The position numbers and the translations under genes are program-made. Shown here one piece after another: positions 23,840 to 34,008 of a DNA stretch of 64,000 nucleotides. The notes beneath the pieces were generated by a model. That model ran no database searches and was not told where the DNA came from. It saw only the letters and a list, made by a program, of their open reading frames with translations. The DNA is from Flexithrix dorotheae DSM 6795 (GTDB taxonomy: Bacteria > Bacteroidota > Bacteroidia > Cytophagales > Flammeovirgaceae). Location: positions 62,001 to 126,000 of the forward strand of contig NZ_KB903441.1 of assembly GCF_000379765.1 (NCBI RefSeq), in the 5' to 3' direction. Each line of letters begins with the position of its first letter. The stretch's first letter is position 1.

Positions 23840-24508
23840 TCAGAATCCTTTTTCCAAGGCCAACCATAACCCATTCCAATTATAGTATTCTACCCCAGCA
23901 AACCTTTTTTTATAATCGTAAAAAGAAGGAACCTGATAGCAATATCCATGATAATAATATTTTTTCTTATGGGTAATGGAAAATTCCAATTCCACCAGCA
24001 TGGTATAAATGCCAAGACTGTATTTGTTGTAGGATAGATCATACATTCCGTAAATACTTGAAATGGATTGGGCTCCTATATCAAAAAAACTGGCTGCGAT
24101 TAGTTTGTCACTGTCATAAACACTTACTTCCAGTCCCTCACAGGGAACCACTGCCGGCTCTTCTGATAAAAAATCATAAATTGAATTTGGAACACTTTGT
24201 TTGAACTTGGTTTTATGTTGCTCAAATAGTTCTTCTTTTTCCTCATCGATAATTGTCGGCCGAACTATCGTTTTAAAGCCTTTTGCCCTTGAAACAATTT
24301 TTCTGTGCTTTTTGGAAAATTGAAATTGGTCAAGATCAATTCTGAGGGGAAGAACCTGGCAAATTTGATTCTCATGGATATTCATATTGTACCTGAAGAA
24401 ATATTTCCCAAAATGCCTCCAACCATTTGCAAACCTTTCATCTAAATTCACTGGTGAAATGGTTTCTATCTTTTTTTCTTCAAATATCAGATTTGCCAGC
24501 CTTGCCAT
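23840..24508 (-). CDS. Arginyl/leucyl-tRNA-protein transferase-like (ATE C-terminal fold)
   Basis: 222 residues. The N-terminal part has CQVLPLRIDLDQFQFSKKHRKI (C50 onward), similar to the arginine- and serine-rich stretch of aminoacyl-tRNA-protein transferases. The C-terminal part has YYYHGYCYQVPSFYDYKKRF, matching the family pattern YxxLGYxxxxxxxMxYKxxF of ATE_C, a GNAT-related fold. The paired CxxC cysteines of the ATE N-domain are absent and the protein is shorter than Bpt or ATE1. Possible role: tagging protein N-termini for degradation (N-degron pathway), but a plain GNAT acyltransferase is the alternative. Single gene, no operon partner. Confidence 0.6.
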   Translation of the reverse strand: MARLANLIFEEKKIETISPVNLDERFANGWRHFGKYFFRYNMNIHENQICQVLPLRIDLDQFQFSKKHRKIVSRAKGFKTIVRPTIIDEEKEELFEQHKTKFKQSVPNSIYDFLSEEPAVVPCEGLEVSVYDSDKLIAASFFDIGAQSISSIYGMYDLSYNKYSLGIYTMLVELEFSITHKKKYYYHGYCYQVPSFYDYKKRFAGVEYYNWNGLWLALEKGF

Positions 24509-24955
24509 AAATTTTCTTAGTATTGCTTAAGTGATACTGTCTATTTAAATAATCCGGTAAAATAAAAAATTGAACCCATCCAGATTCAGAGTTCTACTCC
24601 AAATTTAAGTGTTTTATTAATGGATATGCCTACAACGAATTTCAAACTGTTATCGTTTTTTTGTGAAAAAAATTTGTTTTCTTTAAAAAACCTTACATCG
24701 AAGGGTTTTATTCCAATAAAACAGGATCCACTTTAAAAACCCTCCTTAAAAGCAAAATAACAACTATTTTTAGTATTTTTATTTGATGATTCCATGTAAT
24801 AAAAAGTGTCAATATTATTTAATTTGTTTGTTCTGATTAAAAAAACCTTTTACTTTTAACATTACAATAAAGATAATTCTTCAATCCAATCCTACAACAC
24901 ACTTCCTAATATCTAAACTAACAAAAAGATAAATTGAAAATTAACATCTGAAACT
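24509..24955. other. Divergent intergenic region
   Basis: 447 bp, very AT-rich with A and T runs. It contains a promoter candidate for the small exported protein at 24827-24858. No RNA gene or repeat was recognised. Confidence 0.4.
24827..24858 (+). promoter_or_regulatory. Candidate promoter of the small exported protein gene
   Basis: TTTG at 24827-24830 is followed after 20 nt by TACTTTTA at 24851-24858, one mismatch from TAnnTTTG. The predicted leader is about 90 nt. Confidence 0.35.
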
Positions 24956-25363
24956 ATGCTATTACTAAAATTAAATTTACTAATTGCTTCTTTGCTATTG
25001 ATGGCATTTAATACAAACCCATCTCAGAAGCAACCGAGAAAAGCAGAATTTGCGGTAAACCAAATCCAAAGTTTATCTACTATTGACTTACAGGGAACCG
25101 TTTGGAAATATGAAGATGAAGATATGGTTTACGATATTGTATTTGGTGAAAATGGAACTTTAGTTTCTTCTCATCCTCATGATATCACTCCTGAAAATGA
25201 CGCCTGGTCCCAGGATGGAGAAACAAATACAATCTCCTTTAGCTATAATAATAACTTTTCTGTATATGAGGGTACCCTTGTAAACGAGAGCCTGATTGTA
25301 GGAAAAGCGCATAACAGAAGTTTTTCATGGGAATGGAAAGCTTATAGAGTTGGATTTATGTAA
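24956..25363 (+). CDS. Small exported protein of unknown function
   Basis: 135 residues. The N-terminal hydrophobic stretch (~3-18) looks like a signal peptide without a lipobox. The mature part is polar and beta-rich; GTVWKYEDEDMVYDIVFGENGTLVSS and a later FSWEWKAYRV resemble the strands of small lipocalin-like or DUF-type beta-barrels in Bacteroidota, but I do not recognise a family. It has no close operon partner, and the downstream gap carries repeated motifs. Confidence 0.5.
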   Translation: MLLLKLNLLIASLLLMAFNTNPSQKQPRKAEFAVNQIQSLSTIDLQGTVWKYEDEDMVYDIVFGENGTLVSSHPHDITPENDAWSQDGETNTISFSYNNNFSVYEGTLVNESLIVGKAHNRSFSWEWKAYRVGFM

Positions 25364-25683
25364 TTCAGCATTTTAAAATATTAGGTGAGATATTTTTTCT
25401 CTTTCCATTATTTGCCGTTTTTAATTCCATTTTTTCGCATCTCACCTTCCCCATTTTTTCCCTTCAAGGCTTTTTATTCACTCCCAAATAGCCTAAACCA
25501 TTTTTTCCCATCCGATACGATATATATTTTTATTTCTTAGGCTACTACTTCCTGAAATTGAGTTTAGAAATTACCATTTTTTCCCATCCATTGTGTAATT
25601 TTAGTGGTACTTCTTCGACCTGTGTTCTAACCATTTACTCAGGTATTTTTTTATTTCGGAATCAACAAAAAACTAATTAACCA
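25364..25683. other. Intergenic region with four CCATTTTTTC[CG]C repeats
   Basis: 320 bp without a gene. The 12-mer CCATTTTTTC[CG]C occurs at 25427, 25451, 25498 and 25574. The last two share the longer ACCATTTTTTCCCATCC, with one base difference in front. A 9-bp inverted repeat (25383-25391 with 25439-25447) has a 47-nt loop and spans the first copy. Confidence 0.5.
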
Positions 25684-27192
25684 ATGGCCAACCCAGAAAA
25701 GGAAATTATAAAAAGTATTCAAAATAACCAGACGAAACTAACTGTGGCAGATGCCTCCTCCATTACCGGCCTTGGAATTGAGGAATCAAAATCTGTTTTA
25801 GAGACACTTTTTGAAAAATACCGATGCAACCTGAAAGTCACAGAAAATGGCGACCTGATTTATGATTTTGGCAATAAACTATTCCTCCGAACTGAAAAGA
25901 CATTTAAAGAAAAATGGGCAGAGATAAAAGCCTACATTGGTGGGCTTTTAATGATTATTTTTAAGATTTTAATCACCGTAGTTCTCCTGGTTTATTTCGT
26001 CATATTCACTGTTATTTTAATACTGATCATCATTGCGGCAAGTAGTAAAAATGATTCTGATACTGGAAGTTCTTCTAAAAAATCTGGAGGAGGCTCCTTT
26101 GGAAATTTCATGATTACACAAATATTTTTTAGCGAGTTAAGATCTATTTTTTATTGGCATACAATTACGGGAAACACCGTTTACTCCAAAGACAGGTATG
26201 GATACAGACACAAAGTCTATCAGCCAAGATCTGGGGCCATTAATAAAAATAAAAAAAGTAAAGTAGCCGCAGTGTATGATTTTGTTTTTGGTCCACCAAG
26301 AGTGGAAATTCATCCCCTTGAAAATGAGAAAGAAGCCGTTTCCTATATCAACCAAAATAAAGGAATTATTACTACAAATGAATTAATGGGTTTGGCAAGC
26401 TGGCGGAAACCTGAAGCCGAAAATTTCTTCTCAAAATTGTTGTTAAACTTTGATGGAGAAGGTAAAATAAGTGATAATGGTACGTTGTTCGGAGATTTTT
26501 ATACGCTCATTAGAAAAGCAGGAAGCCAGAAAAATTTTCCCATTACCTGGTACTGGGATGAATACGAACCAGAATATGAAATCACTGGTAATTCTGTTGG
26601 TACTAATGCCGCAATAATTTTCTTTGCTCTGTTCAATCTCATTGGAGGCATCCTTTTTCTATCCACGGTTTTAAGCCCGGAAGCGGCTTCCGGTATACTT
26701 TATACGGTAAACAATTCAGATAACCTCCTGGTGCAAAGTATTTTAGGAACACTTTTCTCAAACCCTGCTCAATTCTCCTTTGTACTTGGCTGGTTTCCAA
26801 CATTTTTCTTTTCAGCTTTTTTAGCCTATCCTCTGTATAGAAGTTTTATTATCAAAAAGAAAAATCATAATATTCATTTAGAAAATATCCGCAAAAGGCT
26901 GTTGAAGGAAATTTATTTGAGTAATCAGGACAAATTAAACATCGATGAGTTAACAAGTCTTACCAATTCCCGAAACAATAATGAAGAAAAGCTGGAAAAA
27001 GAAGCCATTAAAATGATGATGGATGACTTAATCTATGATCTTGAAGGAGAAATGATCGTAGATGATCAGGCACAAATTTTATATGATTTTTCCAGGTTCA
27101 AGACCGATTTAAAAGAAATTGAAAGTTTAAGGGCACAAAGGAAATTAGACAATTCTTTGGGAGATATAATGATTGAGTCAAATAATGAATAA
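25684..27192 (+). CDS. Membrane protein with three winged-helix-like repeats, unknown function
   Basis: 502 residues, family not recognised. A pattern of two helices followed by a beta hairpin ending in YDF or GDF occurs three times: residues ~15-65, ~215-275 and ~412-472. Each has T/D-x-x-E/A-L/S then a glutamate-rich helix and a closing strand pair, resembling small winged-helix modules. Between them lie hydrophobic segments at ~85-118, ~307-330 and ~364-389, and a low-complexity Ser/Gly/Lys stretch at ~122-139. The repeats probably sit in the cytoplasm, so the protein may couple the membrane to nucleic-acid or protein binding; this is inference. Its stop overlaps the start of the FG-GAP lipoprotein, so the two are probably translated together. 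Confidence 0.6.
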   Translation: MANPEKEIIKSIQNNQTKLTVADASSITGLGIEESKSVLETLFEKYRCNLKVTENGDLIYDFGNKLFLRTEKTFKEKWAEIKAYIGGLLMIIFKILITVVLLVYFVIFTVILILIIIAASSKNDSDTGSSSKKSGGGSFGNFMITQIFFSELRSIFYWHTITGNTVYSKDRYGYRHKVYQPRSGAINKNKKSKVAAVYDFVFGPPRVEIHPLENEKEAVSYINQNKGIITTNELMGLASWRKPEAENFFSKLLLNFDGEGKISDNGTLFGDFYTLIRKAGSQKNFPITWYWDEYEPEYEITGNSVGTNAAIIFFALFNLIGGILFLSTVLSPEAASGILYTVNNSDNLLVQSILGTLFSNPAQFSFVLGWFPTFFFSAFLAYPLYRSFIIKKKNHNIHLENIRKRLLKEIYLSNQDKLNIDELTSLTNSRNNNEEKLEKEAIKMMMDDLIYDLEGEMIVDDQAQILYDFSRFKTDLKEIESLRAQRKLDNSLGDIMIESNNE

Positions 27193-28720
27193 AAAAACGA
27201 GGATGGCCCTCCCATCAGTTAATAGGTGTATTTTTTTTGGTTTTAAGATATATGCCCTATTGCTGTTGTTTGGATGTACAAATAAAAAGACAGAATTAGT
27301 CTGGGATAAATCATTTTACAAAATAGGTTCTCAATCCTCTATTCGAACTACTGATATGAATCAGGATGGTATTCTTGATCTTATAATTGGGGCAGGCAGA
27401 AATGAAGAACAATTCAGTGAATCAGGGATACTGGCTATAAATGGCCAGAATGGAGAATTAATCTGGCAACAGGAAACCCAGGACCAGGTTTTTGGAGCAG
27501 CTACTTTTTTGGATATTGATAATGATAAAATAGAAGATATTATTATTGGAGGAAGAGGGCCTCAATTGAAAGCGCTAAATGGAAAAACTGGTGATGTTAT
27601 TTGGCAATTTAACCCTGAACAATATCAAAGTGATTCCCTATTAAAATATGCCCGTTATAATTTTTACAATACTGTATTAATCCCGGACCAAAATGAGGAT
27701 GGACTTGCGGATATTTTGACTGTTAATGGAGGAAATGCCAGGGCTGAGGTCAACTCCTATAAAGACCGCTATCCTGGTGTTTTGCTTATCCTTGACGCCA
27801 AAAATGGCAATATCATTAAAGGAGATACTATGCCAGATGGCAGAGAATCATACATGTCCCCCATTTGTTTTTCCCAACCAGATAATGCCGATTATACCCT
27901 AATTTTTGGCTCCGGTGGCGAAACTATTTCGGGTAATTTATATCAGATTTCCCTTTCCGAGTTTGTTGCAAATGGCTTAAAAAATGCGGAGAATATTGCT
28001 TCTGAAAAAGACCATGGTTTTATTGCCCCGCCAACCGCGGTCGATATTTCTAAGGATGGTATTTTGGATATTGTAGCCATTTCACATGCCAGTACAGTTT
28101 TCGCCATTAATGGGAAAGACCTGAGTCAGATGTGGAAAAAGAAAATTGAAAACACTGAGTGTAGTAACAGTATGGCTGTTGGTTATTTTAATGATGATGA
28201 TATACCTGACTTGTTCACTTTTGTGAGTAAAGGAGTTTGGCCGGAGAATAATGGCTCCTTACAAATTATGTTGGATGGAAAAAATGGAGAGATTGCCTAC
28301 CAAAACACAATGGGCTGTACCGGGTTTTCCTCTCCAGTGGTTTACGACCTGGATAATGATGGCATAGATGAAGCCATAATTAGTATAAATGAATTCGACT
28401 GTAACACCAGTTTTGCAAACAAAATAACAGGAGGTATTCAAAATAAACTTCTAGCTATAAACTTCAAATCCAACACCATACAACCCATAGATCAGCAACC
28501 TGATTTTAAAAATATTTTCACTACTCCCTGGATAGGAGACCTCGATAATGACGGCTATCTGGATATTTTATATGGCCAATATTATAGCCCAAATATTGAT
28601 ATTCTCTCCTTTTTAGGCATGAGAGTAAAAAGAATTTCTACGTCTATTCCCATGAGGGAAGAGGTAAAGTGGGGAGCATATATGGGCTCTAATGGGGATG
28701 GGATATATCCAATTCCTTAA
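27185..28720 (+). CDS. FG-GAP/VCBS repeat lipoprotein
   Basis: About 511 residues from ATG 27185, which overlaps the preceding stop codon; an upstream in-frame TTG at 27173 is less likely. The signal peptide ends in LLFGC with C31 as lipid anchor. The mature protein is a beta-propeller built of repeats with calcium-binding-like loops such as DMNQDGILDLIIG, DIDNDKIEDIIIGG, DLDNDGIDEAI and DLDNDGYLDILYG, mixed with PQQ-like INGQNGELIW strands. It is predicted to face the periplasm or the cell surface, and its ligand is unknown. The 8-base overlap with the triple-repeat membrane protein gene suggests a functional pair. Confidence 0.8.
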   Translation: MNKKTRMALPSVNRCIFFGFKIYALLLLFGCTNKKTELVWDKSFYKIGSQSSIRTTDMNQDGILDLIIGAGRNEEQFSESGILAINGQNGELIWQQETQDQVFGAATFLDIDNDKIEDIIIGGRGPQLKALNGKTGDVIWQFNPEQYQSDSLLKYARYNFYNTVLIPDQNEDGLADILTVNGGNARAEVNSYKDRYPGVLLILDAKNGNIIKGDTMPDGRESYMSPICFSQPDNADYTLIFGSGGETISGNLYQISLSEFVANGLKNAENIASEKDHGFIAPPTAVDISKDGILDIVAISHASTVFAINGKDLSQMWKKKIENTECSNSMAVGYFNDDDIPDLFTFVSKGVWPENNGSLQIMLDGKNGEIAYQNTMGCTGFSSPVVYDLDNDGIDEAIISINEFDCNTSFANKITGGIQNKLLAINFKSNTIQPIDQQPDFKNIFTTPWIGDLDNDGYLDILYGQYYSPNIDILSFLGMRVKRISTSIPMREEVKWGAYMGSNGDGIYPIP

Positions 28721-28725
28721 CTCAA

Positions 28726-28760
28726 AAAAGCCATATGCGAGTAATTCGCAAATGGCTTTT
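28726..28760. terminator. Bidirectional terminator between FG-GAP gene and susD
   Basis: AAAAGCCAT (28726-28734) pairs with ATGGCTTTT (28752-28760), extended by TGCGA/TCGCA (28736-28740 with 28746-28750) across one A-A mismatch. The T-run on one side and A-run on the other serve both convergent genes. Confidence 0.75.
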
Positions 28761-28787
28761 GATTTTAAAGTTTAAAAATTTATCCAA

Positions 28788-30383
28788 TTAGTTCACATCC
28801 CACCAGACTTTGCCTAAGTGCGTGTCTGGAGAAGTACCTCCACTAGCAATATTATCACTATTTGTAGCAATTTCATGAGAAGGATACCTTAACCTTCTTG
28901 GAATTTGTCCATTGGTGATATTTCCAGGATAATCTATTGGAGTTAAATTTGGGTATCCGGTTCTTCTATAATCACTCCATGCTTCCCACCAGTTTAAGAA
29001 TTTACTCAACCACATTTGAGTACCTATCATTTCCAAAGCGTTTGCACCTCCGTTTGTGTAAGGATAAGCTGCAAGGTAAGCATCTACAGCAGCATCGGAT
29101 ACGGCAAATGAGGCATCAAATGGTTCATACATTTGCATTGCGGCTCTAACACCTGCATCATAGTGCTCTTTTGCACTACCACTAACAGTCCCAATGCCTC
29201 TCTCTATGGCTTCAGCCTGAAGGAACTCTACTTCTGCATAGCTCATCAACATATAAGGATCATCCACATCAATAAATGCCACATTCAATCTGGAAAACAA
29301 CTCATTAGGATTAGTTCCTGTAATCCCGGTGTATTCATCAAGTGTCCCTGCATCAAGACCATTTGGCATTCCCTCCTGAGCAAGAGGATCGGTATCCCCA
29401 TTTACACCATCAGAGAAAATCATTAACCTGGGATCATCATCAGCTACGCTGTTTGGATCGTCTCCTTTCAATACATCAATGAGGGTTTTACTCATTATAC
29501 GGGATTGCCCACCATCACCAGGGATAAAAGCCCGCGAAATTCCATTTTGATTAGTCCATTGACTTGGAGTTTCTGACATAGGCACCCAGGGAATGTCGTC
29601 ATTGCTATTAAAGACTCCAGCACCCGAAAGGGCCTTGGTCACCATAGTTCCTGCTGTAGCAGCATCCACATTCGACATTCTCATGGCCATTCTCAACATA
29701 ATTGAATTGGCCCATCTTTTCCATTTATCCACATCCCCCTGAAAAATCATATCTGCAGCGGCAAAACCATCATCTGGATTAGAGGCACTTATGGCTGCAC
29801 CAGCTTGTTCTAACTCACTTAAAACAGCAGTGTAAATAGCCTGTTGATTATCGTATTCTGGGAAGAATTCACCTTCTATACCTTGTAGGGCAGAAGAATA
29901 AGGGATATTTCCGTAATAATCGGTCAGTCTTTGAAAAAGAAAAGCCCTAAGAATTCTTGCTGCTTCCCTGGTATTTTTTCTTCTTCCTTCTTCAAATCCA
30001 CCTTCACCTGTTTGCTTCAATACTTCATTCAGGTTTTTTAACTGGCCACCATAAATAAATTCCCATGGTGCATTGTCAGATTCTACATTTTCAAAATACT
30101 TATCACCAGATGACAATCCGCCACCTCCGGAATTCGCCAGATGCTGTACCCAGTAAGAGCAATAACCAATGTTGGTTCTCCAGTCAATATACCTGTTATC
30201 TCCTTCAGATCCTCCGGAAGCAGCTCCTAGCTGAGCAGCGGAAAAAAGGAAGTTCATATTTACCTCATTCAAAGCCTGAGGGTTAATATTTAAATTGTGG
30301 AGTTTTTCTGTATCGCAACCTGCTAGCGGGACAAGCAAAGCCAACCCACTAATTAATAATTTATATATATATCTCATTTTCAT
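28788..30383 (-). CDS. SusD/RagB-like outer-membrane glycan-binding lipoprotein
   Basis: 531 residues. The signal peptide ends in PLAGC with lipidated C23. The NINPQALNEVNMNFLFSAAQLG opening and the TPR-like helices (RILRAFLFQRLTDYYGNIPYS, YAEVEFLQAEAIERG) are typical of the SusD-like_2 family. It binds oligosaccharide or another nutrient at the cell surface and forms the lid of the SusC channel. It follows susC by 12 bp in the same operon. The ligand is unknown; the divergent GH20-like gene hints at amino sugars. Confidence 0.93.
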   Translation of the reverse strand: MKMRYIYKLLISGLALLVPLAGCDTEKLHNLNINPQALNEVNMNFLFSAAQLGAASGGSEGDNRYIDWRTNIGYCSYWVQHLANSGGGGLSSGDKYFENVESDNAPWEFIYGGQLKNLNEVLKQTGEGGFEEGRRKNTREAARILRAFLFQRLTDYYGNIPYSSALQGIEGEFFPEYDNQQAIYTAVLSELEQAGAAISASNPDDGFAAADMIFQGDVDKWKRWANSIMLRMAMRMSNVDAATAGTMVTKALSGAGVFNSNDDIPWVPMSETPSQWTNQNGISRAFIPGDGGQSRIMSKTLIDVLKGDDPNSVADDDPRLMIFSDGVNGDTDPLAQEGMPNGLDAGTLDEYTGITGTNPNELFSRLNVAFIDVDDPYMLMSYAEVEFLQAEAIERGIGTVSGSAKEHYDAGVRAAMQMYEPFDASFAVSDAAVDAYLAAYPYTNGGANALEMIGTQMWLSKFLNWWEAWSDYRRTGYPNLTPIDYPGNITNGQIPRRLRYPSHEIATNSDNIASGGTSPDTHLGKVWWDVN

Positions 30384-30395
30384 TTCAGTTTTGAT

Positions 30396-33300
30396 TTAAA
30401 ATCCTACTCTTAAATTGAAACCATAACTACGTGTGGCGGGTAGGGCAAAATATTCCAGCCCCTGTGCACCGGCATTATTTGAATATCCGGATTCAGGATC
30501 CACATTATCAATGTTTTTACTAATTACCCACAAATTTCGACCAACTAAGGATAGGGTTAAGTTTTGAATAGGTGTATTGGCTAACATACTTCTTGGGAAG
30601 GAATACCCTAGCGTCATCTGTCTTAGTTTAACAAATGAGGCGTCATAAATAAACATGCTTGAAATTGCAGTACTTTCACCGCCTACTCTATTCCAATAAA
30701 TATTTGCTTCTTCTACAGTAAGATCTCTATCCACAGGAGTATAAACAGGGGCTTCCGGGGTACCGGTATTCACCACACCATTTATATGCAATGGAGCTTC
30801 TCCGGCCCTTCCAATTAGGGATTGCTGATGTAACCCCCACTGAGTTAACCTGTTATTTGTTCCTGAGAAAATATCACCACCTGATTTAAAGTCAATTAAA
30901 AAATCAAGCGTAAATCCTTTATAACTCAAGGTGTTGTTTAAACCTCCGGTGAAATCCGGAACTCCGTTTCCTATTGGAACATAATCTGTAGAAGCCAATG
31001 GAGTGCCATCTTCATTAAATATTGGGGTGCCATCCTCAGTAGTTTGTTGAACCCGTCCGGTGATTGTACCAAAAGGCTGCCCTACAATATGCTTTATTCT
31101 AACATTTCTGGTTCTTGGTTCCTCAGCGGATAATTCATCACTTCCTTCAATCAATGATACCACCTCATTATTATTCTTAGCAAAGTTCAAGGCCACATCC
31201 CATGTAAAGTCTCCTTGTATTGGAGTACCAGTCAGCAATACTTCTATACCTTTATTGGTAATTTCACCAATATTTACAAAGGTAGAACCAAAACCTGATG
31301 CTCTCGAAATTGTCGCATTAAGAATATCATCAGTGGTTTTCTGATCATAATAGGTAAAATCTACTCCAAATCTATTTTCAAAGAACCTCAAGTCTACACC
31401 AAATTCCATTTCAGTTGAAGTGGCTGGTTGTAATTGAGGGTTTGGAATACTTCCATTATTTCCACCGGCAGAAGAGAAAGTAGCCATATTATACCCTAAA
31501 TGAGTATTACCATTTAACGAGTAAGTCAAATTTGCATCATAGGGATTAATATTAGCAATTCCTACCTGTGCCCAGGAAGCTCTTACTTTTCCAAAACTTA
31601 ACCAGGAAGGAAGAGATTCTAAATGATCTGAGAAAATATAACTTGCTCCTACAGAAGGATACAGAATACTGTTATATTCAGGATTTAAGACAGAGAACCA
31701 GTCATTTCTGGCAGTAGCAGTTAAAAATAAGTAACCATCGTAACTAATTTCGGCAGAACCATAGACTGAATTTATTCCGCTTTCACTAAAACCATAACCG
31801 AAGTTCCTGGTAGCAGCGTTGTTTATGGCATCAAAAAACTGCACACTAAATCCATTTCCATTGGCAGAAATCCTTTCACTCACTCTATGCATTTTGTTTC
31901 CTCCGGCAAATGCATTTACATTAATTTTTCCAAAGCTCTTGTCAAAACCCAACATCCAGTCCATATTTATTTCTCTTACACGATCTTCTCCTTCTGTTCT
32001 GGCCCCTCCCAAATTATATCCAGTTCCTTCTGGAGTTAACTGGGTATCTCTTCTGGTAAACCAGTCCATTCCTATCCTACCAGACATATACAACCAGTCA
32101 GTAATATCATATCGAAGTGAACCACTGGCGATAAACCTATCTCTAATATCCGTATTCTGTTCGACCTGAGTTACCCAATATGGGTTTTGCCCCCAGTTAT
32201 TAGCTGCTGGCAACAATTCCTGGCCAGGGAACTTAGGATCACCTCCCTGCCCGTAAATGGTTAAAAGTTCATCACTGGTTCCTGCCGGGATGGCTCCTGG
32301 TTTATTAGGGTCACCTTTATAAGTTTCTACGTTCACACTCGGAGGAGTTCTCCAGACAGATTGCACAGAGTTACTAGGTGAATCTGATAATCGTGGTCTG
32401 TTTTTAGCCTCTTCATGAGAATATAAAACCTTAGCATTTAAGGTCAGTTTCTTGGCAAATTTAGAATTGATATTTAGGGTTAAATTGGTTTTATCAAAAC
32501 CTGAATTGGGTACAATAGACTCACTTCGTAGGTCAGAAATTGAAAATCGGAAAGTCTGATTATCTCCACCACCGCTAAATGCAATCGTATTGGTCCAGGC
32601 CTGACCTGTTTCAAAAAATCGGTCAAAATTGTCTCCTGCAGAAGAATAAGGCCTTTCTACCCCATCAAACTGAATCACCTGGCTGCCATCCATGGCAGTA
32701 CCCCAAGACTGGTTGCCCCATTGGAAAGCCTGCTGGGCAGTGGTAGGCCTTGTGGCTACACCATTCACATAATTTCCAGCTCCATATTTATTTTGCAAAT
32801 CACTTTGGTCATACAATTTATCCACTACATAATTGGAATTAAATTCCACACCTATCCCCTTTCTCTTTGTTCCCTGTTTGGTGGTGATGTTAATCACACC
32901 ATTACCACCTCTGGAACCATAAAGTGCCGCAGCATTTGCTCCTTTTAAAACTGTGATCGATTCAATATCATCTGGGTTTATACTGGTTAGTCCGTCACCT
33001 TCATCACTACCACCCCAAAGACCTGCCTGACCAAATCCAGAGTTATCTATCGGAACTCCATCTACCACATAAAGTGGTTGGTTTTGTCCACCAAGGGTTT
33101 TGTTACCCCGGATGATGATACGGGAAGAACCCGCTGGTCCTGAGGAAGGTTTCGAAACATTTACCCCTGCTACACGTCCTACTAAGGCATTTCCAAGGTT
33201 ATTTTCTCTTGCTTCTGTAAACTTATCACCTCCTACTTCAGTCACAGAGTATTGCAGTGCTTTGGTTTCCCTTTCCACCCCAAGTGCAGTCACCACCACT

Positions 33301-33953
33301 TCCTGTAATTGTTTTATATCTGCTTCCAGTTTTACATCAATCACTGATTGATTTCCAACAGCAATAGTCTGTGCCAGAAAACCAATATAAGAAAATTGCA
33401 AAGAACCTCCTTCCGGAACTTCAATCGTATATTTACCATCTATATCTGTTACAGTTCCCTGTGAGGATCCTTCCACAATTACACTGACACCAGGAAGAGG
33501 CTCCGCATCTTCTGCAGTTGTTACAGTTCCGGTAACGCTTTGTTGCTGAATAATATCCTCCTCTACATCTACCGACCTAAAAAGACTTTTCTCTCTTTTC
33601 ACTACATGAATTACTTCATCTATCCGCTTGAATTTCAATTTTTTATTCTTTGAAATATCCCGCAAAACATTCCCAAGAGATTCGTTCTCCACCTTTACAC
33701 TGATCTTGGTATTTTTATTTATCCTGGAATCATTAAATGCAAAGTCGAAATCTGTCTTAGTACTGATTACCTCAAAAACTTCCTTTAAGGTAAGGTTTTC
33801 CAGTTCTAAGGAAAGATAAACTTCATCGATGCTGGCTTTCTGGGCGTTTCCGTTATTGGCTAACAATACAGAACCGACCAGACATTGGACAAAAATCCCA
33901 TAAAAAAAGAGTTTAGACATAATAAAAATTTGTCGTATTAATTTCCATTTCAT
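30396..33953 (-). CDS. SusC/RagA TonB-linked outer-membrane transporter with STN domain
   Basis: About 1185 residues from ATG 33953 (MKWKLIRQ), which gives a normal family N-terminus; the frame extends to 33986. After the signal peptide come an STN domain (~45-115), a carboxypeptidase-like beta-sandwich (~130-215, VTGTVTTAEDAEPLPGVSVIV), the plug with PLYVVDGVPI and SITVLKGANAAALYGSRGGNGVI, and a long beta-barrel. The STN domain implies signalling to the FecR-like anti-sigma factor encoded upstream. Imports large oligomers with TonB energy together with SusD. No frameshift seen. Confidence 0.95.
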   Translation of the reverse strand: MKWKLIRQIFIMSKLFFYGIFVQCLVGSVLLANNGNAQKASIDEVYLSLELENLTLKEVFEVISTKTDFDFAFNDSRINKNTKISVKVENESLGNVLRDISKNKKLKFKRIDEVIHVVKREKSLFRSVDVEEDIIQQQSVTGTVTTAEDAEPLPGVSVIVEGSSQGTVTDIDGKYTIEVPEGGSLQFSYIGFLAQTIAVGNQSVIDVKLEADIKQLQEVVVTALGVERETKALQYSVTEVGGDKFTEARENNLGNALVGRVAGVNVSKPSSGPAGSSRIIIRGNKTLGGQNQPLYVVDGVPIDNSGFGQAGLWGGSDEGDGLTSINPDDIESITVLKGANAAALYGSRGGNGVINITTKQGTKRKGIGVEFNSNYVVDKLYDQSDLQNKYGAGNYVNGVATRPTTAQQAFQWGNQSWGTAMDGSQVIQFDGVERPYSSAGDNFDRFFETGQAWTNTIAFSGGGDNQTFRFSISDLRSESIVPNSGFDKTNLTLNINSKFAKKLTLNAKVLYSHEEAKNRPRLSDSPSNSVQSVWRTPPSVNVETYKGDPNKPGAIPAGTSDELLTIYGQGGDPKFPGQELLPAANNWGQNPYWVTQVEQNTDIRDRFIASGSLRYDITDWLYMSGRIGMDWFTRRDTQLTPEGTGYNLGGARTEGEDRVREINMDWMLGFDKSFGKINVNAFAGGNKMHRVSERISANGNGFSVQFFDAINNAATRNFGYGFSESGINSVYGSAEISYDGYLFLTATARNDWFSVLNPEYNSILYPSVGASYIFSDHLESLPSWLSFGKVRASWAQVGIANINPYDANLTYSLNGNTHLGYNMATFSSAGGNNGSIPNPQLQPATSTEMEFGVDLRFFENRFGVDFTYYDQKTTDDILNATISRASGFGSTFVNIGEITNKGIEVLLTGTPIQGDFTWDVALNFAKNNNEVVSLIEGSDELSAEEPRTRNVRIKHIVGQPFGTITGRVQQTTEDGTPIFNEDGTPLASTDYVPIGNGVPDFTGGLNNTLSYKGFTLDFLIDFKSGGDIFSGTNNRLTQWGLHQQSLIGRAGEAPLHINGVVNTGTPEAPVYTPVDRDLTVEEANIYWNRVGGESTAISSMFIYDASFVKLRQMTLGYSFPRSMLANTPIQNLTLSLVGRNLWVISKNIDNVDPESGYSNNAGAQGLEYFALPATRSYGFNLRVGF

Positions 33954-34008
33954 ACTTTTAAGTGGTTTTGAGTAAATAAAAAACACTCACAGGCCGAATT
34001 TATCCTGT

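Follow-up and report, generated by a model that had tools for sequence, protein, structure and literature searches.

A membrane protein of 502 aa encoded in the genome of Flexithrix dorotheae DSM 6795 (gene A) contains three related copies of one module and, judging by sequence comparison, belongs to a widespread, unnamed, and uncharacterised family of membrane proteins with homologues in three phyla. The open reading frame starts from an ATG and occupies positions 25684..27192 (+ strand) of the window, by which we mean the whole 64,000-nucleotide stretch of DNA that was analysed. It is followed by gene B, which encodes an FG-GAP propeller protein with a putative lipobox, and the earlier note on this DNA had suggested that the two genes may form an undescribed sensing or surface-display unit. 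We see an even chance that gene A instead encodes a cytoplasm-facing membrane scaffold of an old family, whose winged helices would dock proteins and not DNA, and that gene B is a separate gene without a functional tie to it.

In gene A, one membrane segment lies between the first and second winged helices and two lie between the second and third, all parts being on the + strand. Module 1 (residues 4-66; 25693..25881) is followed by membrane segment 1 (residues 87-117; 25942..26034), which coincides with a hydropathy peak in gene A and in all three groups of relatives and forms part of a single long helix (65-124) in the predicted model. The motif YDFVFGPP (residues 198-205; 26275..26298) precedes module 2 (residues 208-276; 26305..26511), an acidic module with a net charge of -5 in gene A. 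Membrane segment 2 (residues 305-329; 26596..26670) and membrane segment 3 (approximately residues 361-390; 26764..26853) are both helices in the model, the latter being the start of a longer one (361-417), and the corresponding hydropathy peaks of gene A lie at 311-326 and 371-376. Module 3 (residues 396-476; 26869..27111) carries an insert of about eight residues separating its second and third helices. The three-module anatomy with intervening membrane helices that had been read earlier from this DNA is borne out, and its positions agree with those used here.

Profile alignment demonstrates that the three modules are kin beyond chance. When slices of the family alignment were compared with hhalign, modules 1 and 2 matched at 98.7% probability (2.1e-16), modules 1 and 3 at 97.3% (1.8e-11), and modules 2 and 3 at 97.4% (9.9e-12), and these pairs kept 95.9-97.3% when rows of the window's phylum were used alone. 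As a control, the 18 other pairs among the seven slices reached no more than 23.3%, the top pair being two slices with 11 columns in common and the next pair standing at 3.2%. Column shuffles (30 per true pair, 90 in total) gave at most 14.5% and nine reversed-profile comparisons at most 5.6%. The module slices consisted of 50 rows, module 3 being represented by just the 19 non-cyanobacterial ones; two spirochaete loci in the wrong frame (L189 and L190) were left out, as were split genes from three genomes (G160, G306, and G424), which are also excluded from the tree described below. A module profile built without rows from the target genomes recovered three modules each in G004, G005, G008, and G011, and two in G031. 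The profile alignment of the three repeats, which had been named as a check in the earlier note, thus confirms their similarity at 97.3-98.7% against the controls.

AlphaFold2 modelling of gene A with 69 sequences resulted in a mean pLDDT of 73.1 and a pTM of 0.60. The full-length model predicts a winged-helix fold for modules 1 and 2, in each case with the order helix-strand-helix-helix-strand-strand. Most rows of the alignment lack module 3, and residues 418-434 and 443-469 of this module fall under pLDDT 50. Folding module 3 by itself, with its Treponema counterpart and rows from the first two modules in the alignment, gave a pLDDT of 83.0 and the same H-E-H-H-E-E order, in a model that these related rows bias towards a winged helix. 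Structure prediction, the second check proposed beforehand, therefore gives one predicted fold for modules 1 and 2, and for module 3 likewise when related rows are supplied. Foldseek found no match to the full gene A model in the PDB at E <= 0.001, and a sequence search of solved structures with gene A gave nothing better than E 0.15. In a second-look structure comparison with the PDB, module 1 reached a Z of 8.6 (rmsd 2.1 over 61 residues) and module 3 a Z of 9.1 (rmsd 4.6 over 91 residues), which are middling by the tool's own scale, and the listed matches are mostly winged-helix proteins. They include winged helices of protein complexes (ESCRT-II for module 1 and the COP9 signalosome for module 3) and many DNA-binding regulators of the MarR/ArsR/IclR type.

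Membrane-anchored one-component regulators of the ToxR/CadC type are known, and gene A could in principle encode a transcription regulator of this sort, tethered to the membrane and contacting DNA through its winged helices. The predicted fold and the many regulators among the listed PDB matches are consistent with such a function. In addition, the last module of L011, a small single-module protein, exceeds the cut-off of Pfam HTH_24, a family named for DNA binding, and this match supports the winged-helix fold as well as a DNA-binding role. Net charge offers a further comparison. Module 2 averages -5.1 in the window's phylum (14 sequences), -5.8 in spirochaetes (5), and -5.0 in the cyanobacterial phylum (31), and is above 0 in none of the 50 sequences. 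The means for module 1 are -1.3 in the window's phylum, +0.6 in spirochaetes, and -2.7 in the cyanobacterial phylum, with ranges of up to +3, while those for module 3 are -2.2 (window's phylum) and -0.4 (spirochaetes), with a range of -12 to +6; the positive spirochaete mean of module 1 and the upper end for module 3 would suit DNA binding. By net charge, then, module 2 is acidic, whereas modules 1 and 3 vary widely around averages close to neutral. Since net charge is a crude measure of a basic DNA-reading surface, this speaks only weakly against DNA binding, and for module 2 alone. Moreover, three modules interspersed with membrane segments would be an unusual layout for a DNA-binding protein, and on balance we consider a transcription regulator unlikely.

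A docking scaffold, the reading preferred here, would have its modules on the inner side of the membrane. Hydropathy peaks near residues 87-117, 311-326, and 357-383 are common to all three groups of relatives. The segments flanking the modules are rich in Lys and Arg, with 6 such residues in 63-86, 10 in 163-206, and 7 in 388-412, as compared with 2 in 123-145 and 0 in the loop 331-362. According to the positive-inside rule, this distribution would place all three modules in the cytoplasm, provided that residues 139-162 cross or dip into the membrane, and a cytoplasmic orientation of the modules is thus plausible from charge and hydropathy. So placed, the three modules would serve to dock proteins, perhaps keeping a partner complex at the inner membrane, and not to read DNA. 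A search for partners in the cyanobacterial loci showed that, apart from the family itself, the commonest neighbour cluster occurs in 28 of the 80 loci, from which we inferred no partner.

Gene B (27185..28720, + strand) encodes 511 aa, or 505 aa if translation starts at 27203. It matches Pfam FG-GAP_3 (PF13517) at 5.2e-16 in six stretches (59.4 bits against a cut-off of 26.9), PF01839 (42.4 bits against 22.1), and the FAM234A/B propeller model at 8.7e-12, also above the cut-off, and a motif scan identified four strict calcium loops. The earlier description of a calcium-loop propeller is supported by the FG-GAP_3 match and these four loops, and the protein is lipoprotein-like in carrying a putative lipobox, LLFGC (Cys 31 from the first ATG), identified by eye. 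The stop codon of gene A (TAA, 27190-27192) overlaps the ATG at 27185 in the gene B frame by 8 nt. An alternative in-frame ATG at 27203 would instead leave a 10-nt gap, so that an overlap of the two genes is possible and not certain. In G001, the one genome of the same genus searched, gene B begins 5 nt past the stop of gene A, and the ATG that corresponds to the overlapping one is not in the gene B frame. The overlap is thus not conserved. The stop/ATG overlap that had been pointed out earlier thus exists in the window if gene B starts at 27185 and gives way to the 5-nt gap in the same-genus genome. A promoter scan of 24500-28900 found 13 promoters against 17.5 expected and is therefore uninformative.

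The proposal that genes A and B form a two-gene unit for sensing or surface display, in which an outer propeller would signal to the inner modules, draws on the tight linkage of the genes in the window's genome and in G001, whose copy of A is 88% identical and whose copy of B is about 79-80% identical. However, a near full-length homologue of A is present in 7 of 38 related genomes, and B adjoins it only in these two; five other related genomes have A without an adjoining B. Homologues of B (E <= 1e-20) occur in 4 of the 38 related genomes, namely the window's own, G001, G021 (two places), and G008 (two places). No homologue of A was found in G021, and in G008 the A homologue lies on another contig than either B homologue. 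A calcium-loop scan of 119 loci with A-family genes or distant relatives detected an ORF with at least two strict loops in two loci, one in the same-genus genome and one in L118, where it is a 99-codon frame that does not resemble an FG-GAP gene. By this motif an FG-GAP neighbour is thus found only in the same-genus genome, in a set of 119 that includes duplicates, the distant relatives L020-L022, and many 1.5-kb flanks, and in which a diverged FG-GAP gene may escape the strict motif. With 150 of its 377 candidates scored, the window's genome itself contains at least 149 matches to FG-GAP_3, so that an FG-GAP gene next to A is unsurprising. The overlap, moreover, is not kept in G001. The search for the two genes side by side in other genomes, as had been proposed, therefore shows the pair to be absent outside the genus among the genomes examined, and the suggested coupling of gene A to an exported propeller is not supported. 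We rejected the two-gene unit on these grounds and regard it as highly improbable. Gene B seems to be a genus-specific neighbour of A and not its working partner; it would encode a separate envelope lipoprotein that is functionally unconnected with A, even if the two genes may share a transcript. The two-gene unit itself is unlikely to matter, and the family of gene A is the more useful finding.

Several other features were observed around the pair. Upstream of gene A, at 25426-25589 (+), a 17-nt direct repeat (ACCATTTTTTCCCATCC and variants) occurs four times. Allowing up to three mismatches, the window holds six matches to the repeat against 0.60 expected, a number that none of 100 shuffles reached. 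A 16-mer of the repeat has three matches in the whole genome with up to one mismatch, two of them upstream of gene A. No such repeat was found in the corresponding region upstream of A in the sister genome, in which two copies are partly kept. An arginyl-tRNA-protein transferase-like gene (23840-24508, - strand; Pfam ATE_C 2.7e-16, ATE_N 2.5e-7) lies between ATP synthase genes and gene A, and a 135-aa protein without a Pfam match is encoded at 24956-25363 (+); of the loci compared, only that of the same-genus genome has a homologue of it. A SusC/SusD-like pair, read by eye, occupies 28788-33986 and points to Bacteroidota as the window's phylum.

Scans of Pfam and NCBIfam returned no model that covers gene A, and Pfam searches with ten family members gave nothing beyond weak matches (best E 0.0023). 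The motif F-x-F-[hydrophobic]-F-G-D-G-N-P-N, sought as a DNA pattern, was found in at least 112 stretches of genome contigs; 80 of these were listed and translated, the other 32 being loci L143-L174. Among the 80 matches listed, 75 are Cyanobacteria by label, two are Melainabacteria contigs from one genome, and one each comes from Obscuribacterales, Treponema, and another bacterium. The FGDGNPN motif lies inside an open frame of at least 258 codons in all 80 listed matches, and one protein cluster is common to 74 of these loci. A single member of the cyanobacterial family tested against Pfam (L063) matched no model above the cut-off. For alignment, 68 of the 80 listed loci were used (closed frame of at least approximately 380 codons), the other 12 being cut off or short. 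With E-values calculated for this 68-sequence database, BLASTP aligned residues 3-414 of gene A with a cyanobacterial protein (1.3e-21) and residues 6-484 with the Treponema protein L123 (4e-19). Comparison of the gene A profile with the cyanobacterial family by hhalign gave 99.9% probability (2.6e-35) over 375 columns at 22% identity. Twelve residues (T20, G56, F62, L101, F200, F202, G203, G258, G266, F272, P383, and R386) are invariant in the 69 sequences as well as in a 10-sequence set from the three phyla.

Two further proteins, Arabidopsis At5g03900 and Synechocystis slr1306, may be members of the family, and the Synechocystis gene is reportedly linked to CO2 concentration, going by the title of a paper. 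The Arabidopsis protein is listed as an inner-envelope protein with two helical transmembrane segments and a function to be explored (PMC3565376). We found no functional study of the family in the literature searched, which for the most part did not extend to subscription papers. The CO2 link, if slr1306 does belong here, and the conserved residues by the last membrane segment, among them P383 and R386, which do not vary in the 69 sequences, could indicate a small transporter or channel component in which the winged helices are regulatory. However, gene A has just about three membrane segments and matches no transporter family above the cut-off, and we find this quite improbable in comparison with a docking scaffold.

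Among the genomes sampled, matches to the family at 1e-60 or better were found in 88 of 244 from the cyanobacterial phylum (97 counting weak matches), 11 of 395 from the window's phylum (12 counting one weak match), and 7 of 198 from the Treponema phylum (17 counting weak matches, mostly short). In a tree of 36 rows, including 17 of the 67 rows of the cyanobacterial phylum, the rows of each phylum make up one side of a starred branch, the 14 rows of the window's phylum with a support of 100/99. This split by phylum gives no sign of recent transfer, and we accordingly rejected a recent horizontal gain of gene A. Viral relatives were likewise sought and rejected: a motif scan of viral contigs gave 18 loci whose frames read as unrelated, and an alignment scan found no relative. 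A search of plasmids for relatives of gene A returned no match. Melainabacteria and Obscuribacterales are non-photosynthetic, and the family is present in genomes labelled as such, with five matches in G430 (Melainabacteria; L077/L104), two of which are probably pieces of one gene, and six in G431 (Obscuribacterales; L068). Their presence there argues against a purely photosynthetic role. Three other genomes of the cyanobacterial phylum have one match each, including that of Cyanobacterium sp. uoEpiScrs1 (L070). Diatom endosymbionts of this kind have lost photosynthesis, which, if it applies here, would be a further sign of retention without it.

Single modules also occur. Three spirochaete loci, L183 (1480-2205), L194 (1201-1734), and L196 (1213-1713), encode a TM2 domain (PF05154, above the cut-off) followed by one module, and in the window's phylum L041 and L212 encode small proteins that, by reading, combine hydrophobic stretches with one module. 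Among distant relatives of A, G002 has three genes in tandem (L020:8195-13822), whose products of 616, 616, and 621 aa are identical in their first 30 residues. A stretch of approximately 12 kb is found near both ends of contig G004:C4 (L021:175-12060 and L022:3506-15392), each copy with a distant relative of A, and this repeat is perhaps either a real duplication or an assembly end.

With somewhat less than even confidence, we propose an undescribed and ancient membrane-tethered winged-helix module, which would act in the cytoplasm as a platform on which membrane complexes dock. It would occur as a single copy on TM2-type anchors and in triplicate in a family found in Spirochaetes, in the window's phylum, and in Cyanobacteria together with non-photosynthetic relatives of theirs (and in the chloroplast inner envelope if the plant link holds). 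The family has strong matches in 88 of the 244 genomes sampled from the cyanobacterial phylum and relatives in two other phyla, yet Pfam and NCBIfam hold no model that covers A. The triple winged-helix anatomy, the non-photosynthetic holders, and the acidic module 2 offer a testable start on it.

Compared with known systems, gene B is like other FG-GAP propeller lipoproteins in its FG-GAP_3 match, calcium loops, and putative lipobox (by eye), and nothing notable differs. The TM2-domain proteins L183, L194, and L196, which were detected by the family profile, carry one C-terminal copy of the gene A module on a TM2 anchor. The spirochaete relatives (L123, L187, and L188, including Treponema) are approximately 22% identical to gene A and possess all three modules in the same order. 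The cyanobacterial F-x-F-L-F-G-D-G-N-P-N family is collinear with gene A through the first two modules and the membrane segments and has the invariant residues in common, whereas most of module 3 is missing from its aligned rows. The YDFVFGPP of gene A aligns with FSFLFGDG of that family, so that gene A has PP where cyanobacteria have DG after FG, and FGPPRVE stands in the place of FGDGNPN, with F200, F202, and G203 shared. Gene A is therefore a homologue of the narrow cyanobacterial subgroup and not a member of it.
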